64,000 bases of DNA from Fluviicola sp. (GTDB lineage Bacteria > Bacteroidota > Bacteroidia > Flavobacteriales_D > Crocinitomicaceae), in the NCBI RefSeq assembly GCF_039596395.1, contig NZ_JBCNJT010000001.1, forward strand, positions 779,315-843,314. The letters run 5' to 3'. The position numbers and the translations under genes were made by a program. Below, piece after piece: positions 6,194-60,250 of the stretch (position 1 is its first letter; every line of letters begins with the position of its first letter). The notes under the pieces are model-generated. The model was given only the letters and a program-made list of their open reading frames with translations. It did not search any database and had not been told where the DNA came from.

Positions 6194-6237
6194 TTTACAA
6201 TTGTTAAGAGAGAAGATCCCGGTTTGACAGACCTTTG
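6194..6237 (+). promoter_or_regulatory. Predicted Crp/Fnr-type operator and -7 box of the oxidoreductase
   Basis: The imperfect dyad TTTAC-AATT-GTTAA (6194-6207) is centred 29.5 bp upstream of a -7-like box GACCTTTG (6230-6237), one base from the consensus TAnnTTTG. Exactly the same spacing occurs at 29795-29838 and 59855-59898. With transcription starting about 12 bases after the box begins, the dyad centre falls near -41.5, the class II activator position. There is no -33 TTTG at the right distance, which fits activator dependence. Confidence 0.55.
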
Positions 6238-6254: not shown

Positions 6255-7229
6255 ATGAAAGCTGCAATTATCAAAGAACTGGGACAAACTCCCGTTTATT
6301 CCGATCATCCGGATCCTGTACCTGCCAATGAAACCGAATTGCTCATGAATGTGAAAGCCGCCTCGGTAAAGAACCTGGATAAGCTTCGGGCGAGTGGAAA
6401 GCACTATGCCAGTTATACCGAACTTCCTGCTGTTGCGGGAATCGACGGAGTTGGTACACTGGAAGACGGCACACTGGTTTATGCGCAGGGAATTTCAGGA
6501 ACACTGGCCGAACAGGCACTTATTCGAAAAGGTCAGTACGTCGTTGTTCCGCAAGGGTTGGATATAATTCAGGCGGCGGCATTGCCCAATGCGGTAATTG
6601 GCGCTGCAATGGCTTTGCGTTTCCGGGCAAAGATGAAAAAAGAAGATGTCGTGTTAATCAACGGAGCAACAGGAGTTACAGGTAAACTGGCGGTTCAGCT
6701 TGCAAAGCACGACGGAGCTTCCAAAATTATTGTAACGGGAAGAAATAAATCCGTTTTAGAAGAGTTACGTGGTTTGGGAGCAGATGAGGTGATTTCGCTG
6801 CTGGATTCCGATGAAGCGATTATCGAACGGCTTAAATCCATTCATCGGGAAACACCCATTTCCTGCGTGATTGATTATTTGTGGGGAAAACCGGTGGAAC
6901 TGATCATTTCTGCACTGAAAGGCGGGGGTGTCAATTCCTTTACTCCTCAGGTAAAAATCGTGACAGTAGGAAGTATGGCCGGAGAAAACATCTCACTTGG
7001 TTCCGGAACGTTGAGAAGTTCGGCTATTGAAATCCTGGGATCCGGTTTGGGAAGTCTTTCCAGAGAAGACCTGCATCGGTTCTATAAGGAAGTTTTACCC
7101 GAAATATTTGAATTGGCGAAGGATGGAAAATTAAAACTGGATACTTATACAGCACCACTTTCCGAAGTTGAAAAGGCCTGGGAGTTGGCTTTGGAGGGAG
7201 GAGTGAGATTGGTCATTTCGGTAGATTAA
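6255..7229 (+). CDS. Zinc-independent MDR oxidoreductase (quinone-reductase-like)
   Basis: This is a 324-residue medium-chain dehydrogenase/reductase. The N-terminal half is the GroES-like fold. A Rossmann fold follows, with the NAD(P) loop LINGATGVTGKLAVQLAK at about residues 132-149. Ligands for catalytic or structural zinc are absent, placing it with NADPH:quinone oxidoreductases and related enoyl reductases. The enzyme would reduce quinones or alpha,beta-unsaturated carbonyls in the cytoplasm; the true substrate is unknown. It lies 129 bases downstream of a Crp/Fnr regulator in the same direction, behind its own predicted activator-type promoter. A second MDR/Crp pair exists at 29864-31404, so the module is duplicated. 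Confidence 0.88.
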   Translation: MKAAIIKELGQTPVYSDHPDPVPANETELLMNVKAASVKNLDKLRASGKHYASYTELPAVAGIDGVGTLEDGTLVYAQGISGTLAEQALIRKGQYVVVPQGLDIIQAAALPNAVIGAAMALRFRAKMKKEDVVLINGATGVTGKLAVQLAKHDGASKIIVTGRNKSVLEELRGLGADEVISLLDSDEAIIERLKSIHRETPISCVIDYLWGKPVELIISALKGGGVNSFTPQVKIVTVGSMAGENISLGSGTLRSSAIEILGSGLGSLSREDLHRFYKEVLPEIFELAKDGKLKLDTYTAPLSEVEKAWELALEGGVRLVISVD

Positions 7230-29794: not shown

Positions 29795-29838
29795 TTAACC
29801 CAAGTCAATGAAATTGGGAAATGACCGGAATACTTTTG
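29795..29838 (+). promoter_or_regulatory. Predicted Crp/Fnr-type operator and -7 box of the second MDR gene
   Basis: The dyad TTAAC-CCAA-GTCAA (29795-29808) is centred 29.5 bp before TACTTTTG (29831-29838), a full match to TAnnTTTG. The expected start is near 29843, which puts the dyad centre at -41.5. No TTTG occupies the -33 position. The spacing is identical to the one upstream of the first MDR gene. Confidence 0.6.
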
Positions 29839-29863: not shown

Positions 29864-30820
29864 ATGAAAGCAGTTCATTGCACGTCGTACGGAAATCCGG
29901 AAGTACTGAAAATCGTTGAAATTCCGAAACCGAAACCTCAGTCGGATGAGTTAGTAATCCGTATCCATGCTACAGCGGTAAATTCCGGGGATGCACGCAT
30001 TCGCCGGGCTGACCCGTGGGCAGTGAGATTGATCTTCGGACTTGCGAAACCCCGGAAACCCATTTTGGGAGGTGTTTTTTCAGGAGAAATCGTGGAAACG
30101 GGAAATGCGGTCAGTAAATTCCGGGTTGGTGAGCTGGTTTTCGGCTCTGTGGGAATGAAATTCGGTGCTTATGCGGAATTTATAGCCGTCCCGGAAACAG
30201 CGGCTATTACTGCGAAACCGGAATCGCTGAGCCATCTGGAAGCTGCTGTCATTCCTTTCGGTGCTATGACAGCTTTGCATTTCATCCGTAAAGCAAACAT
30301 CCAACCCGGACAAAAAGTGTTGATCTACGGGGCTTCCGGAGCAGTTGGTTCGGCGGCAGTCCAATTGGCAAAATTTTATGGAGCGGAAGTCACGGCGGTT
30401 TGCAGCGGCGCAAATGCGGAATTAGTGAAAAAGATCGGCGCGGATAAGGTTATAAATTACCGCAAGGAAGAGTTATCGGTAAATAAGGAACAGTACAATG
30501 TGATTTACGAAACAGTCAACAAACTCTCCTTTTCGGAAAGTATCAAACACCTGAAAAAAGACGGGACTTTGATCCTGGGAGCAGCGGATTTTTCTAAAAT
30601 GCTTCGTGCAGGTTTCGCAAGAATGTCGGGCAAAAAAGTGATAACGGGCGTCATCAAAGAATCAGCTGAAGGAATGGATGCTGTAAAGAAACTGATCGAC
30701 GAAAGAAAATACCAGCCGGTTTTAGATCGCGTATTCACCCTGGACCAGATTGCACAGGCGCATGAATATGTGGATTTGGGACATAAGAAGGGAAATGTGG
30801 GGATTCTGGTTATACCGTAG
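29864..30820 (+). CDS. Zinc-independent MDR oxidoreductase, quinone-reductase type
   Basis: This is a 318-residue NAD(P)-dependent oxidoreductase. A GroES-like half (VVNSGDARIRRADPW-type segment at about 45-58) is followed by a Rossmann half with LIYGASGAVGSAAVQLAK near residues 148-165. Zinc ligands are absent. It is related to the enzyme at 6255 but clearly diverged from it. The substrate is unknown. It converges, with an 8-base gap, on a Crp/Fnr regulator gene, so the same two gene types are neighbours here as at 5592-7229. Its promoter carries a Crp/Fnr-type dyad. Confidence 0.88.
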   Translation: MKAVHCTSYGNPEVLKIVEIPKPKPQSDELVIRIHATAVNSGDARIRRADPWAVRLIFGLAKPRKPILGGVFSGEIVETGNAVSKFRVGELVFGSVGMKFGAYAEFIAVPETAAITAKPESLSHLEAAVIPFGAMTALHFIRKANIQPGQKVLIYGASGAVGSAAVQLAKFYGAEVTAVCSGANAELVKKIGADKVINYRKEELSVNKEQYNVIYETVNKLSFSESIKHLKKDGTLILGAADFSKMLRAGFARMSGKKVITGVIKESAEGMDAVKKLIDERKYQPVLDRVFTLDQIAQAHEYVDLGHKKGNVGILVIP

Positions 30821-53831: not shown

Positions 53832-54089
53832 TTATTTATCGATCGAACCGGTAACCCGCTTCATGAATTCATTCAGGGCATCTTTCTGGGATTTCCCCGC
53901 TTTGATTTCCTTGTGAACTTCAATGGCCCCGGAGAAATTGGAAAGGATTTCACCGATTACGTCCAGTTCTTCGTCTTTCAACCCGGGAGCATCAATCAAG
54001 TGCTCCAACGTTTCGATTGTTTCATTGACATAGTCTTCATCGTTCTCTTCGATAAAGGCTACCATGTGTTTAATTACCGGCAACCGCAT
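53832..54089 (-). CDS. DUF6952-family small protein
   Basis: This is an 85-residue, acidic, wholly helical protein (MRLPVIKHMVAFIEENDEDYVNE...). I recognise it as the small protein usually encoded after thioredoxin in flavobacterial peroxiredoxin operons (DUF6952). Its start lies 20 bases inside the end of the thioredoxin gene, so the two are co-translated. No Cys is present, so it is not itself a redox protein. Function is unknown; a chaperone or adaptor for the thioredoxin or peroxiredoxin is possible. Confidence 0.75.
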   Translation of the reverse strand: MRLPVIKHMVAFIEENDEDYVNETIETLEHLIDAPGLKDEELDVIGEILSNFSGAIEVHKEIKAGKSQKDALNEFMKRVTGSIDK

Positions 54090-54384
54090 CTTTGATCTCT
54101 TGAATGATTTCTACTTTATTTCCCTGGGCTTGCTTTACCAATTCGCCGTTCACAAAGCCCGCGAAAGTAGGCAGGTTGGAAACATCCGCAAATTTGCGCG
54201 AGTTTGGTAATTTCTCTGCATCCACGTAATAGAATTCTATTCCGGGATTTTCTTCAGCCATTCGTTTGAATTTAGGCTTGGTGATTTTACAGTTACCACA
54301 CCACGATGCTCCGTATTGAACCATCACTTTTTGATTGGTATTCAATAACTGCTCTAAATTGTCTTCCGTTAACTCTGTAAACAT
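54070..54384 (-). CDS. Thioredoxin-family protein (WCGNC active site)
   Basis: This is a 104-residue thioredoxin fold with the redox motif WCGNC at 28-32 (Asn in place of the usual Pro) and the cis-Pro in SNLPTFAGF. It has no signal peptide and is cytoplasmic. It follows peroxiredoxin by 6 bases and precedes DUF6952 with overlap, so it probably serves as the reductant of that peroxiredoxin. The CGNC motif should shift its redox potential from that of classical CGPC thioredoxin. Confidence 0.92.
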   Translation of the reverse strand: MFTELTEDNLEQLLNTNQKVMVQYGASWCGNCKITKPKFKRMAEENPGIEFYYVDAEKLPNSRKFADVSNLPTFAGFVNGELVKQAQGNKVEIIQEIKDAVAGN

Positions 54385-54390
54385 GATTTC

Positions 54391-55008
54391 TTAGTGTTTG
54401 CTTAAATATTCTGCTGTACTTGCAGCATTTGCTTTCATAGCATCTTTTCCTTCTTCCCAGTTTGCAGGACATACTTCACCATGCTGTTGTACATGTGTGT
54501 AAGCATCCACCAAACGGATATACTCCTGCACGTTACGCCCTACAGGCATGTGGTTCACTGACTCGTGGAAAACTGTTCCTTCTTCGTCGATCAGGTAAGT
54601 TGCACGGTAAGTCACGTTGTCACCTGCTGAATCTTCATCGTACGGATCGAAATCCAAAATATCCAGTTCTTCAGCCAAACGACGTGTTGAATCAGCAATC
54701 AACGGGAATTTAACTCCTTCGATACCTCCGTTGTCTTTCGGTGTGTTTAACCACGCAAAGTGAACCTCAGCAGTATCACAAGATGCCCCGATTACCAAAG
54801 TATTGCGTTTTGCAAACTCAGCAGAAGCCTCCTGGAAAGCGTGAATTTCCGTCGGACAAACGAACGTGAAATCTTTCGGATACCAGAACAATACTACTTT
54901 TTTCTTGTGCTCAATGGCATGCTTCAACACATCGATTTGAAAAGTATCTCCCATTTCATCCATTGCATTCACCAATACGGAAGGGAATTTTTTACCTACT
55001 ACACTCAT
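54391..55008 (-). CDS. Peroxiredoxin (2-Cys, AhpC/Prx1 type)
   Basis: This is a 205-residue peroxidase that reduces H2O2 and organic peroxides. The peroxidatic Cys is C51 in FTFVCPTEIHAF, and the resolving Cys is C180 in GEVCPANW, so it is a typical 2-Cys enzyme. An Arg near residue 135 completes the site. The length is normal. It is first in an operon with thioredoxin and DUF6952, 87 bases downstream of dps and near oxyR. It is therefore probably part of the OxyR response. Confidence 0.95.
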   Translation of the reverse strand: MSVVGKKFPSVLVNAMDEMGDTFQIDVLKHAIEHKKKVVLFWYPKDFTFVCPTEIHAFQEASAEFAKRNTLVIGASCDTAEVHFAWLNTPKDNGGIEGVKFPLIADSTRRLAEELDILDFDPYDEDSAGDNVTYRATYLIDEEGTVFHESVNHMPVGRNVQEYIRLVDAYTHVQQHGEVCPANWEEGKDAMKANAASTAEYLSKH

Positions 55009-55095
55009 TTTTTTGATTTTTATATTTGATTTAATTAATTGCTCTTTCGCATGATCATTATAAAGATGGTCTCTTGATAATGGATCACTTAATAA

Positions 55096-55542
55096 TTACT
55101 TCCCCAGCCATGCAGCGAACATCCAGTTCGTTTTCTCTTTCTCGCGAACCAGGTCACTCATCATGGCGTTTGTTCCTTCATCACCCAAATCCGCTGATTC
55201 GGATAAAATTTCACGTTCTAATTTAAGAATAGTTTCCTGCGCATTCAAAATGTACGTCATACCTTCTTTTCCGTCGTGGATCGTTCCGTTCTCTTTCAAA
55301 TCACTGTGTTTCAGATAGTCTTCGAAACGGTGAAGCGGGGTAATGCCTAAAGTCAGGATGCGCTCTGCCAGATCATCAATAATGATTTGCGTTCTGGTGT
55401 ACAATTCCTCGTATTTCAAATGCAATTCGAAGAAATTTGTACCTTTTATATTCCAGTGGATCGCACGCAAATTTTGATAATGTACCTGGTACGTTGCCAA
55501 CAGGCGATTCATTTTGTTATTCAGATCTTGTTGTGAACTCAT
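55096..55542 (-). CDS. dps: Dps-type ferritin
   Basis: This 148-residue mini-ferritin oxidises Fe(II) with H2O2 and stores iron, protecting DNA. The intersubunit ferroxidase ligands are kept: His 29, His 41, Asp 56 and Glu 60, with spacings that match E. coli H51, H63, D78 and E82. Glu 45 replaces D67. The N-terminal tail is short and not Lys-rich, so direct DNA binding is less likely. It is divergent from oxyR with a 165-base gap that holds a predicted -7 box and nested palindromes. Confidence 0.93.
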   Translation of the reverse strand: MSSQQDLNNKMNRLLATYQVHYQNLRAIHWNIKGTNFFELHLKYEELYTRTQIIIDDLAERILTLGITPLHRFEDYLKHSDLKENGTIHDGKEGMTYILNAQETILKLEREILSESADLGDEGTNAMMSDLVREKEKTNWMFAAWLGK

Positions 55543-55569
55543 AGCTTTTTTTAATTAGATATCGAGACT

Positions 55570-55627
55570 TCAGGATTTTAAGATGTCAGACTCAGATTTT
55601 TAAAAATCTGAAGTCCTAAAATCCTGA
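55570..55627. repeat. Nested palindromes in the dps leader
   Basis: The outer 11-bp inverted repeat is TCAGGATTTTA (55570-55580) with TAAAATCCTGA (55617-55627). Inside it is a perfect 18-bp palindrome, CAGATTTTTAAAAATCTG (55593-55610). If the -7 box at 55657-55664 is right, the whole structure is in the dps 5' leader, about 25 bases before the ATG. Confidence 0.75.
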
Positions 55628-55656
55628 TGTTTGTTGAAACAAAGGTGGTGATTATT

Positions 55657-55664
55657 CAAATATA
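55657..55664 (-). promoter_or_regulatory. Predicted -7 box of dps
   Basis: The minus strand reads TATATTTG, a full match to TAnnTTTG. The start would be near 55652, giving a leader of about 110 bases. About 28 bp upstream is ATAG-N7-TTAT (55692-55706), a partial likeness to an OxyR half-site pair (ATAG-N7-CTAT). Confidence 0.5.
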
Positions 55665-55707
55665 AATGATATTGATTAACTTTATAAATCCATAGAATTA
55701 ATTTATA

Positions 55708-56628
55708 ATGATTTCACCACAGCAAATAGCATACATTCTTTCCGTTTATGAAACGGGATCCATCAGCCGGGCAGCCGAACAATGTTTCGTAACGCAACCC
55801 ACACTTTCCATGCAACTGAAAAAAGCAGAGGAGTTATTGGGGCATATTATTTTTCACCGGGATACGAATACGATGGAACTGACGGATTTCGGGAAGTCGC
55901 TGATTCCACTTTTGCAGCAAATCCAGGGAGATTTCGGCGCAATAGACCGCATCAGTCAAATCTATTCCGGAACTTATAAGGAACGTTTGCGAATCGGGGT
56001 AATCCCTACGGTTGCAGCTTATTTGTTATTGGATAATTTCCAGGAATGGCAGGCTTTGCTTCCGAATACCCAGGTTTTTGTCGAAGAATTGAAAACCGAA
56101 GAATTGATAGAAGCCCTGGACCAACGGAAAGTGGACCTGGCTATTTTGGCCGGACCTCTGAACCAGAATCATTACCGCATTACGCCTTTGTTCATGGAAG
56201 AAATCCTGGCGTATGCTCCGAGCGTTCCCGGTGAAATCTTATTGGTCGATCAGTTGAAAGACCTTCAACCGTGGTTGCTCAACAAAGGAAATTGCCTGCG
56301 CACGCAGATGATGCAATTTTGCGCGATTGATGATGATTTGCCCTCAAGCTGGAATTACCAGGGCGGAAACATGGATTTGTTGATGCGCATGGTTGACCAG
56401 CAGGGTGGTTACACGCTGATCCCGGAATATTACCATCCTTTCGTTTCTCAAACTACCGAGTTCAAATCGATCCGTGACAACCAGGGTTCTTTCCCGGGCA
56501 GGTCTATTATCGCAGTAAGTGCTTTCCGGCATGCAAACTGGGATTCGATGGAAAAGATTATCCGTTCCATTCAGCACAAATACAGCAAGCCGGTTTCGAA
56601 GGAGTTGGAGTTGTTGAGTTGGAAATAG
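55708..56628 (+). CDS. oxyR: OxyR-type LysR regulator
   Basis: This is a 306-residue LysR-family activator of peroxide defence. The N-terminal winged helix covers about 1-60 (SISRAAEQCFVTQPTLSMQLKK). The redox pair is C196 and C205 in GNCLRTQMMQFC, with the same 9-residue spacing and wording as C199 and C208 of E. coli OxyR. This makes the assignment firm. Its divergent neighbours, dps and the peroxiredoxin-thioredoxin operon, are classic OxyR targets. The length and C-terminus are normal. Confidence 0.95.
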   Translation: MISPQQIAYILSVYETGSISRAAEQCFVTQPTLSMQLKKAEELLGHIIFHRDTNTMELTDFGKSLIPLLQQIQGDFGAIDRISQIYSGTYKERLRIGVIPTVAAYLLLDNFQEWQALLPNTQVFVEELKTEELIEALDQRKVDLAILAGPLNQNHYRITPLFMEEILAYAPSVPGEILLVDQLKDLQPWLLNKGNCLRTQMMQFCAIDDDLPSSWNYQGGNMDLLMRMVDQQGGYTLIPEYYHPFVSQTTEFKSIRDNQGSFPGRSIIAVSAFRHANWDSMEKIIRSIQHKYSKPVSKELELLSWK

Positions 56629-59752: not shown

Positions 59753-59854
59753 TTTTGGGTTTTAGATTTGGATGGTTAATGAACTAAACTAAAAACTGCG
59801 AAGTATGGATATATACCTGTTTATGTCGGGAATTCAAAAAGGTAAACACGGAAA

Positions 59855-59898
59855 CTGATTTTTATCAGAAATTTTTTTTCGAAAGAGAACTACCTTTG
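59855..59898 (+). promoter_or_regulatory. FNR/DNR-like operator and -7 box of the truncated haemoglobin
   Basis: A perfect dyad CTGAT-TTTT-ATCAG (59855-59868) differs from the Fnr-type box TTGAT-N4-ATCAA only at the two outermost bases. Its centre is 29.5 bp before TACCTTTG (59891-59898), the same spacing as in the two oxidoreductase promoters. The box begins 12 bases before the ATG, so the predicted start is at or within 2 bases of the A of the ATG. Confidence 0.65.
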
Positions 59899-59902
59899 AC
59901 CT

Positions 59903-60250
59903 ATGAAAGAGATCGAAACGAAAGCAGACGTGGAATTACTGGTAGATGTTTTCTATCAGAAACTGGTAAAGGATGAATTGGTTTCCCACTTTTTTGCGAA
60001 GCTCGATCTGAAGGAACATTTGCCACGTGTGGTGCAATTCTGGAGTTTTATTTTATTGGACGAAGCAGGTTACAGTGCCAACATGATGGAGAAACACGCC
60101 CGTTTGAATCTTGACGCGGCATCTTTTGACCGCTGGCTGAAATTATTCCATGAAACAGTCGATCAGTTCTTTACAGGAGAGAAAGCCGAATTGGCCAAAC
60201 AGCGCTCCACATTGATTGCCTGGACGATGAAAACAAAGTTCATTAAATAA
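59903..60250 (+). CDS. Group III truncated haemoglobin
   Basis: This is a 115-residue haem protein. The proximal His is H65 (MMEKHARLNL), the conserved Trp is W78 in FDRWLKLFHETVD, and the B helix carries FYQKLV. These match class III truncated globins, which often bind NO or O2 with high affinity. It is slightly short for the class. Its promoter carries an Fnr/DNR-like dyad, so oxygen- or NO-linked control is likely. Predicted leaderless translation would make the mRNA start at the AUG. It is monocistronic. Confidence 0.88.
   Translation: MKEIETKADVELLVDVFYQKLVKDELVSHFFAKLDLKEHLPRVVQFWSFILLDEAGYSANMMEKHARLNLDAASFDRWLKLFHETVDQFFTGEKAELAKQRSTLIAWTMKTKFIK

Follow-up and report, generated by a model that had tools for sequence, protein, structure and literature searches.

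Class II promoters that Escherichia coli CRP and FNR activate have a site of two 5-base halves centered at -41.5 and a weak or missing upstream core element. In the sigma-A promoters of Bacteroidota, TTTG at -33 is the second element. For Flavobacterium psychrophilum, the cited part of one report places the -7 box TAnnTTTG at -12 to -5 (PMC9723704). Among regulators of the Crp/Fnr type, HcpR, DNR, and NnrR are described, in the sections cited here, as having recognition-helix residues (R180 and E181) that correlate with bases of the motif; their motifs are of the TTGACnnnnGTCAA and GTAACnnnnGTTAC types, and the regulators often adjoin their targets (PMC1274295). BT4338, an activator of Bacteroides thetaiotaomicron, has its site upstream of the -7 box, with the consensus wwwTATGTTnTAnAACATAwww given in the cited portion of its description (PMC6989115).

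The window analyzed here, a single stretch of 64 kb, was reported in a first-pass annotation to contain three Crp/Fnr-like dyads, each with its center 29.5 bp ahead of a TAnnTTTG-like -7 box, measured to the box's first base. Dyads and boxes lie where that annotation put them, and the distance is exactly 29.5 bp in each case (Table 1). With a transcription start 12 bases downstream of the first box base, all three dyads would be centered at -41.5, the class II position; the base at the predicted +1 is a purine at sites 2 and 3 (G and A) and T at site 1. The one departure from the box consensus is at site 1, where G replaces T as the first base. TTTG at -33, of which the annotation had seen no good copy, is absent from all three sites. 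As it had also noted, two of the sites (1 and 2) adjoin a Crp/Fnr gene, the gene before site 3 being gamma-carbonic-anhydrase-like. No RNA families or tRNAs were reported within the 64 kb.

Table 1. Sites, boxes, and neighboring genes in the 64-kb window
Feature	Position	Strand	Description
Crp/Fnr-type regulator, 177 aa	5592-6125	+	Directly upstream of site 1; PF00027 4e-12; HTH_Crp_2 partial, below cut-off
Site 1 dyad, TTTAC-AATT-GTTAA	6194-6207	+	Predicted center -41.5; symmetric in 4/5 pairs
Site 1 -7 box, GACCTTTG	6230-6237	+	5/6 consensus letters; predicted start 6242
Target 1, medium-chain dehydrogenase/quinone-reductase-like oxidoreductase	6255-7229	+	PF00107 7e-12
Site 2 dyad, TTAAC-CCAA-GTCAA	29795-29808	+	Predicted center -41.5; symmetric in 4/5 pairs
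Site 2 -7 box, TACTTTTG	29831-29838	+	6/6 consensus letters; predicted start 29843
Target 2, zinc-type/quinone-reductase-like oxidoreductase	29864-30820	+	PF08240, PF00107, PF13602
Crp/Fnr-type regulator, 191 aa	30829-31404	-	Convergent, just behind target 2; PF00027; helix VKPESLSRIR
Gamma-carbonic-anhydrase-like hexapeptide protein	59125-59637		Gene preceding site 3
Site 3 dyad, CTGAT-TTTT-ATCAG	59855-59868	+	Predicted center -41.5; symmetric in 5/5 pairs
Site 3 -7 box, TACCTTTG	59891-59898	+	6/6 consensus letters; predicted start 59903
Target 3, truncated (bacterial-like) globin	59903-60250	+	PF01152 7e-7

Inside the window the 29.5-bp spacing is no outlier and hence was not used as evidence: on the plus strand a dyad of at least 4/5 stands at this distance before 17 of the 424 boxes that score at least 5/6, a number that one other spacing also reaches, and on the minus strand 7 of 356 boxes have one. 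Support above chance comes from conservation and from statistics around Crp/Fnr genes.

Target 2 is PIG3-like and falls under the NCBIfam cut-off (TIGR02824, 155 bits versus 296.8). At the globin gene, transcription is predicted to begin on the A of the ATG, which would give a leaderless message; the distance from box to ATG is 12 to 13 bases in those globin orthologues of the genus, probably Fluviicola, that have the site, L033 excepted. A second block, AAAAAGGTAAACAC-like, at 59836-59849 finishes 5 nt ahead of the globin dyad; GTAAAC occurs in this block in 7/8 genus loci (L025 to L033), L029 being the exception. An OxyR-like LysR gene (55708) is divergent from genes for a Dps-like ferritin, a peroxiredoxin, and a thioredoxin (54070-56628).

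Conservation upstream of orthologues was the test set beforehand in the first-pass annotation, and the sites passed it. For site 2, TTAAC-N4-GTCAA was found at 29.5 bp in 7/7 close orthologues (67 to 100% identity, its own locus included). A cNMP-domain gene adjoins the orthologous oxidoreductase in all six relatives, and in five of these six the region was retrieved, the helix being KPESLSR each time. Three distant homologues with a cNMP-domain neighbor (40 to 42% identity) were compared by counting spacings on the sequence by hand; two have TTAACCCAAGTCAA one base further off, at 30.5 rather than 29.5, and the third has TTGACTTACATCAA at 29.5. Site 1 has a close orthologue (78%) in one other genome, G088, among 14 genus genomes, and in this one relative TTTACAATTGTTAAGAGAGAAG, 22 bases around the dyad, is identical and stands at the same spacing before a box that reads GATCTTTG.

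For site 3 the same test came out positive within the genus and negative beyond it. TGAT-N4-ATCA is complete at 29.5 bp in seven of nine sampled genus genomes (this one included), the exceptions being G080, with one half, and G030, without the site; three further genus genomes with a globin site were found through the pattern itself. Outside the genus, dyad plus box occurs in 0/21 globin loci with enough upstream sequence (22 fetched, from a comparison of the best 30 globin loci), and two out-of-genus loci show a 7/8 dyad match without a box. The idea that site 3 is an old operator of globin genes is thus unsupported.

The 29.5-bp spacing was then counted over larger sets. The pattern TGATN4ATCA-N{15,30}-TAnnTTTG has 85 matches in the 14 genus genomes, orthologues being taken separately, of which 46 are at 29.5 and 39 are spread over the other 15 spacings; a control with the reversed pattern gave 7 matches in all. 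Neighborhoods of Crp/Fnr genes were collected in two sets. The genus set comprises 118 neighborhoods from this genome and eight relatives, the relatives contributing 100 stretches with 102 regulator genes (two double ones included) chosen among the matches listed. The outside set comprises 80 neighborhoods in 18 genomes elsewhere in the order; it omits 18 of 98 Crp/Fnr places, mostly long open frames and one at a contig end, which removed one of 19 genomes. The 69 control sequences were the window minus the three site regions together with globin and oxidoreductase loci free of Crp/Fnr genes. Boxes of at least 5/6 were counted if intergenic and at most 220 bp before a gene, and 29.5 was compared with 47 other spacings.

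At 29.5 the genus set has 36 perfect 5-4-5 dyads, versus a mean of 2.47 (maximum, 7) at the other spacings, and the 18 other genomes have 16, versus 1.60 (maximum, 5). The controls have 5, versus 0.70 (maximum, 3); four of these belong to genus globin promoters and the remaining one, at L054, is AT-rich. For 4/5 dyads the counts are 48 versus 19.43 (maximum, 31) in the genus, 28 versus 11.62 (maximum, 19) in the other genomes, and 13 versus 8.40 in the controls, the last below the maximum of 17. A perfect dyad at 29.5 lies within 700 bp of 48/200 regulators, compared with a mean of 2.49 (maximum, 6) elsewhere, or, counted by clusters, 28/101 compared with 2.30 (maximum, 6). Short proteins (at most 215 aa) make up 151 of the 200 Crp/Fnr genes and account for 43 of the regulators with a nearby perfect dyad, against 5 of the 49 long ones. 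The commonest layout is regulator, dyad, and target in the same direction (73/101 near pairs). A second peak, class I positions included, was searched for among the 47 other spacings and not found. No perfect dyad at 29.5 lies within 700 bp of 152/200 regulators. Genus genomes encode 2 to 19 cNMP-domain proteins each across the 14 examined, this one 18, and nine of the 18 paralogues here are without a dyad of at least 4/5 at 29.5 in their 3.2-kb locus.

Promoter cores were compared as well. Among 42 promoters that combine a perfect dyad with a box containing A and TTTG, the -12 base is G in 18, T in 16, C in 7, and A in 1, versus T in 148, A in 76, G in 53, and C in 48 of 325 boxes without a dyad; G for T at -12 suggests weaker core promoters that need help. 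A purine stands 12 bases after the box start in 36/42 dyad promoters and 192/325 dyad-free boxes (Fisher P = 0.0006), which is indirect evidence for the predicted starts. A T-rich stretch spans -33 to -28 in the dyad promoters, and TTTG beginning at -36 to -30 occurs in 8/42. TTG or TTTG near -33 was found in 8/42 dyad promoters and 75/325 dyad-free boxes; it is no commoner at the latter, so by this test an absent -33 element is not special to dyad promoters.

Both regulators of the window have a cNMP fold (PF00027 above cut-off), while no C-terminal helix-turn-helix (HTH) of theirs is over the Pfam cut-off (partial and below it, or no match). In a structural model of the 191-residue protein (mean pLDDT, 77, with the other four models at 41 to 49; alignment of two sequences), a cNMP barrel and a long helix are followed by a predicted HTH that stops at the recognition helix, the modeled helices being 147-157, 159-164, 167-174, and 178-190. 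The model resembles CRP and FNR structures. The 177-residue protein aligns across the same C-terminal region, and its chain stops right behind the recognition helix, ITPVSLSRIR; a C-terminal HTH is thereby predicted for the window regulators. Neither has a β-hairpin wing, as both stop 8 to 9 residues past the SR of the helix motif, and the model has no strand after residue 178.

Half-sites vary with the recognition helices of the adjoining regulators. PETLSR, QETLSR, LETLSR, and TETISR go with TTGAT or TTGAC; PETFSR mostly with TTGATATTTGTCAA; QQSLSR and TQSLSR with TTACC; KPQSLSR with TTCAC (L149 and L206); QYSLSR with TTGCC; PEYLSE and PVFLSM with TTAAA; RVVVSR, RVVISR, and REVISR with GTAAC; and PVSLSR with TTTAC/GTTAA (site 1) or TTATC. 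Two cases stand outside the near-pair table because the dyad is more than 700 bp from the regulator, namely, QSSLSR with TTGCC (L014 and L200) and KPESLSR at site 2. Exceptions are the PETFSR proteins, whose own genes are in addition preceded by AT-rich or other dyads; the PVSLSR proteins, which are divided between two classes; and L235, a KPQSLSR regulator with an unrelated dyad. No dyad of at least 4/5 at 29.5 was found in the locus of L004, which has the same helix (ITPVSLSRIR) as the site 1 regulator, or in that of L007, although its helix, KPQSLSR, elsewhere pairs with TTCAC.

When the 48 perfect pairs were reduced to 17 single-linkage clusters (29 regulators with several different helices fall into one of them), distances between helices correlated with those between half-sites (Mantel r = 0.51 to 0.57, P = 0.0002), also after partialling out overall identity (r = 0.31 to 0.39, P = 0.0008 to 0.0014). 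Dyads ahead of the regulator's own gene being omitted, genus pairs predicted the half-sites of 14 out-of-genus sites with 0.73 mismatches of 5, versus 1.65 for shuffled pairs (best of 300, 0.88). The figure is 0.82 versus 1.67 (best, 0.96) for regulators of less than 50% identity, and the prediction weakens below 40% (1.07 versus 1.63; best, 1.04). The first-pass annotation had proposed separate specificities for at least two regulators, which is supported, since half-sites follow the recognition helices. The GTAAC dyads adjoin RVVVSR, RVVISR, or REVISR regulators at L203, L205, L241, L291, and L324; the targets at L203 (metallo-β-lactamase-rhodanese) and L291 (TauE family) suggest a response to sulfide or persulfide. 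Regulators with RTLTR (L154) and RSLNR (L146) adjoin other dyads, with a TGTCC core.

Site 3 belongs with the FNR-type TGAT sites of the genus. FNR-type helices of the form E-x-x-[S/I]-R read a TGA core. Among the genes behind genus TGAT sites at 29.5 are those for the globin, HemN, a COX15-CtaA protein (PF02628), one with DUF983 (PF06170), and a PAS histidine kinase, the last directly followed by the gene of a response-regulator-Crp/Fnr fusion. At L145 a hemN gene (TIGR00538, 424 bits versus a cut-off of 325) is divergent from an L002-type regulator gene, with TGATN4ATCA at a predicted -41.5 between them, and the arrangement is the same at L216, where the divergent gene resembles hemN by appearance. 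The helix of the L002-type regulator, TATETLIR, fits the FNR rule; as regards the iron-sulfur cluster and oxygen sensing of FNR, the protein has CQDC near its N terminus. The L002 gene of this genome has no such dyad in its own locus. As its relatives face hemN through a TGAT dyad, this FNR-like type, encoded elsewhere in the genome, is the best candidate and most likely serves site 3.

The fusion protein (L001 type) was considered for site 3 and is less likely, as G010 has the site and its listed cNMP proteins (276, 247, and 208 aa) are all shorter than the fusion. At L019 (1501-3043) and L001 the kinase gene is preceded by a TGAT dyad with its predicted center at -41.5; the fusion gene, in L001, L190, and L239, is followed by dyads of the form TGAG-N4-CTCA. 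In five genomes (G030, G046, G100, G101, and G104) a single TGAT dyad serves both directions, one side at 29.5 and the other, in 4/5, at two bases more.

Taken together, the dyads are probably operators of Crp/Fnr-family dimers placed for class II activation; we infer binding, activation, start sites, the assignment of regulators to sites, and signals. The class II activator reading of the first-pass annotation gains support from conservation and from the enrichment of 29.5 beside Crp/Fnr genes, both read from sequence. A dimer would sit on the dyad at -41.5, overlapping or abutting the -33 place, just upstream of the sigma-A-type -7 box. At sites 1 and 2 one regulator would drive one target, the 177-residue protein the oxidoreductase at 6255-7229 and the 191-residue protein that at 29864-30820, and both would be members of a large group of short, wingless Crp/Fnr proteins ending at the recognition helix. 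The same reading seems to extend to many short, apparently wingless paralogues that would activate a neighbor from -41.5.

We lean slightly toward a broader proposal, that in Flavobacteriales a wingless Crp/Fnr family has expanded into private switches: every paralogue would read a 5-4-5 dyad of its own, placed exactly at -41.5 in front of a neighboring gene and with a half-site readable from the helix, and once bound would replace the -33 element and the T at -12. By such a rule, ETxSR would specify TTGAT or TTGAC; YSLSR and SSLSR, TTGCC; EYLSE and VFLSM, TTAAA; QSLSR after TQ or TT, TTACC, and after KP, TTCAC; RVVVSR and REVISR, GTAAC; and KPESLSR, TTAAC/GTCAA. Regulators with little or no Pfam HTH would then have predictable targets.

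The same neighboring proteins might bind the dyads and repress by blocking RNA polymerase, since a dimer spanning -48 to -35 would block it too, some dyads precede the regulator's own gene (13/101 near pairs), and dyad-free boxes lack a -33 TTTG no less often. This is unlikely: blocking needs no single exact position, yet 29.5 is sharply preferred, and the frequency of G for T at -12 (18/42 versus 53/325) suggests weaker cores. It is more doubtful still that one global FNR-like protein of loose specificity reads all dyads, the short neighbors being incidental. TTGAT/TGAT are indeed the commonest types in the pair list, and there are FNR-like proteins whose HTH domain is complete, but half-sites range from TTGAT to TTACC, TTGCC, TTAAA, TTCAC, and GTAAC and track the helix of the neighbor.

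That the dyads are chance occurrences picked by eye from a multitude of boxes, or else hairpins of weak terminators that belong to the genes upstream, would agree with the unexceptional spacing inside the window. We consider it the most improbable of these explanations, because dyad sequence and spacing are kept while flanks diverge and because one spacing to the downstream box is enriched in two separate genome sets. Chance is already an improbable reading of site 2 and, inside the genus, of site 3; the argument against it is weakest at site 1, with its one relative.

If activation from -41.5 is right, dozens of regulators would be given targets and operators by the 29.5-bp dyad and the helix rule, and they would form a natural series for testing helix-specified DNA recognition without a wing. 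Our search of titles and abstracts of open-licence papers found no such system of short Crp/Fnr proteins and neighboring genes in Flavobacteriales; restricted to open-licence papers, it is weak evidence of absence. The -41.5 geometry and the covariation of helix and site are known elsewhere, while the neighbor-gene system looks new.

A solved structure exists for another short Crp/Fnr protein, the 194-aa cyclic nucleotide binding regulatory protein of Cytophaga hutchinsonii (PDB 3dn7), which is the best sequence match of the 191-residue regulator (E = 6.6e-31) and its top Foldseek hit; its helix, PEYLSE, would place it in the TTAAA class, judging from the pairs listed above, whereas that of the window protein is KPESLSR. 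HcpR, DNR, and NnrR, as far as the cited sections go, are nitrogen-oxide regulators, while the proteins here are mostly short and wingless with targets of other kinds and half-site classes (TTACC, TTGCC, TTAAA, TTCAC, and TTTAC) beyond the motif types given there. The BT4338 consensus, as quoted, shares the 4-base center of our dyads, and according to the same portion of that work BT4338 governs carbohydrate use through many targets, unlike the neighbor-gene switches proposed here. Like E. coli class II promoters, the promoters described here have a putative dimer site of two 5-base halves at a predicted -41.5, with the upstream core element weak or missing; unlike them, they have as their core a -7 box TAnnTTTG, often GAnnTTTG at dyad promoters, and their proposed regulators are many neighbor-gene paralogues. 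Class II geometry would thereby be indicated for the sigma factor of Bacteroidota, whose core promoter is unlike that of E. coli.
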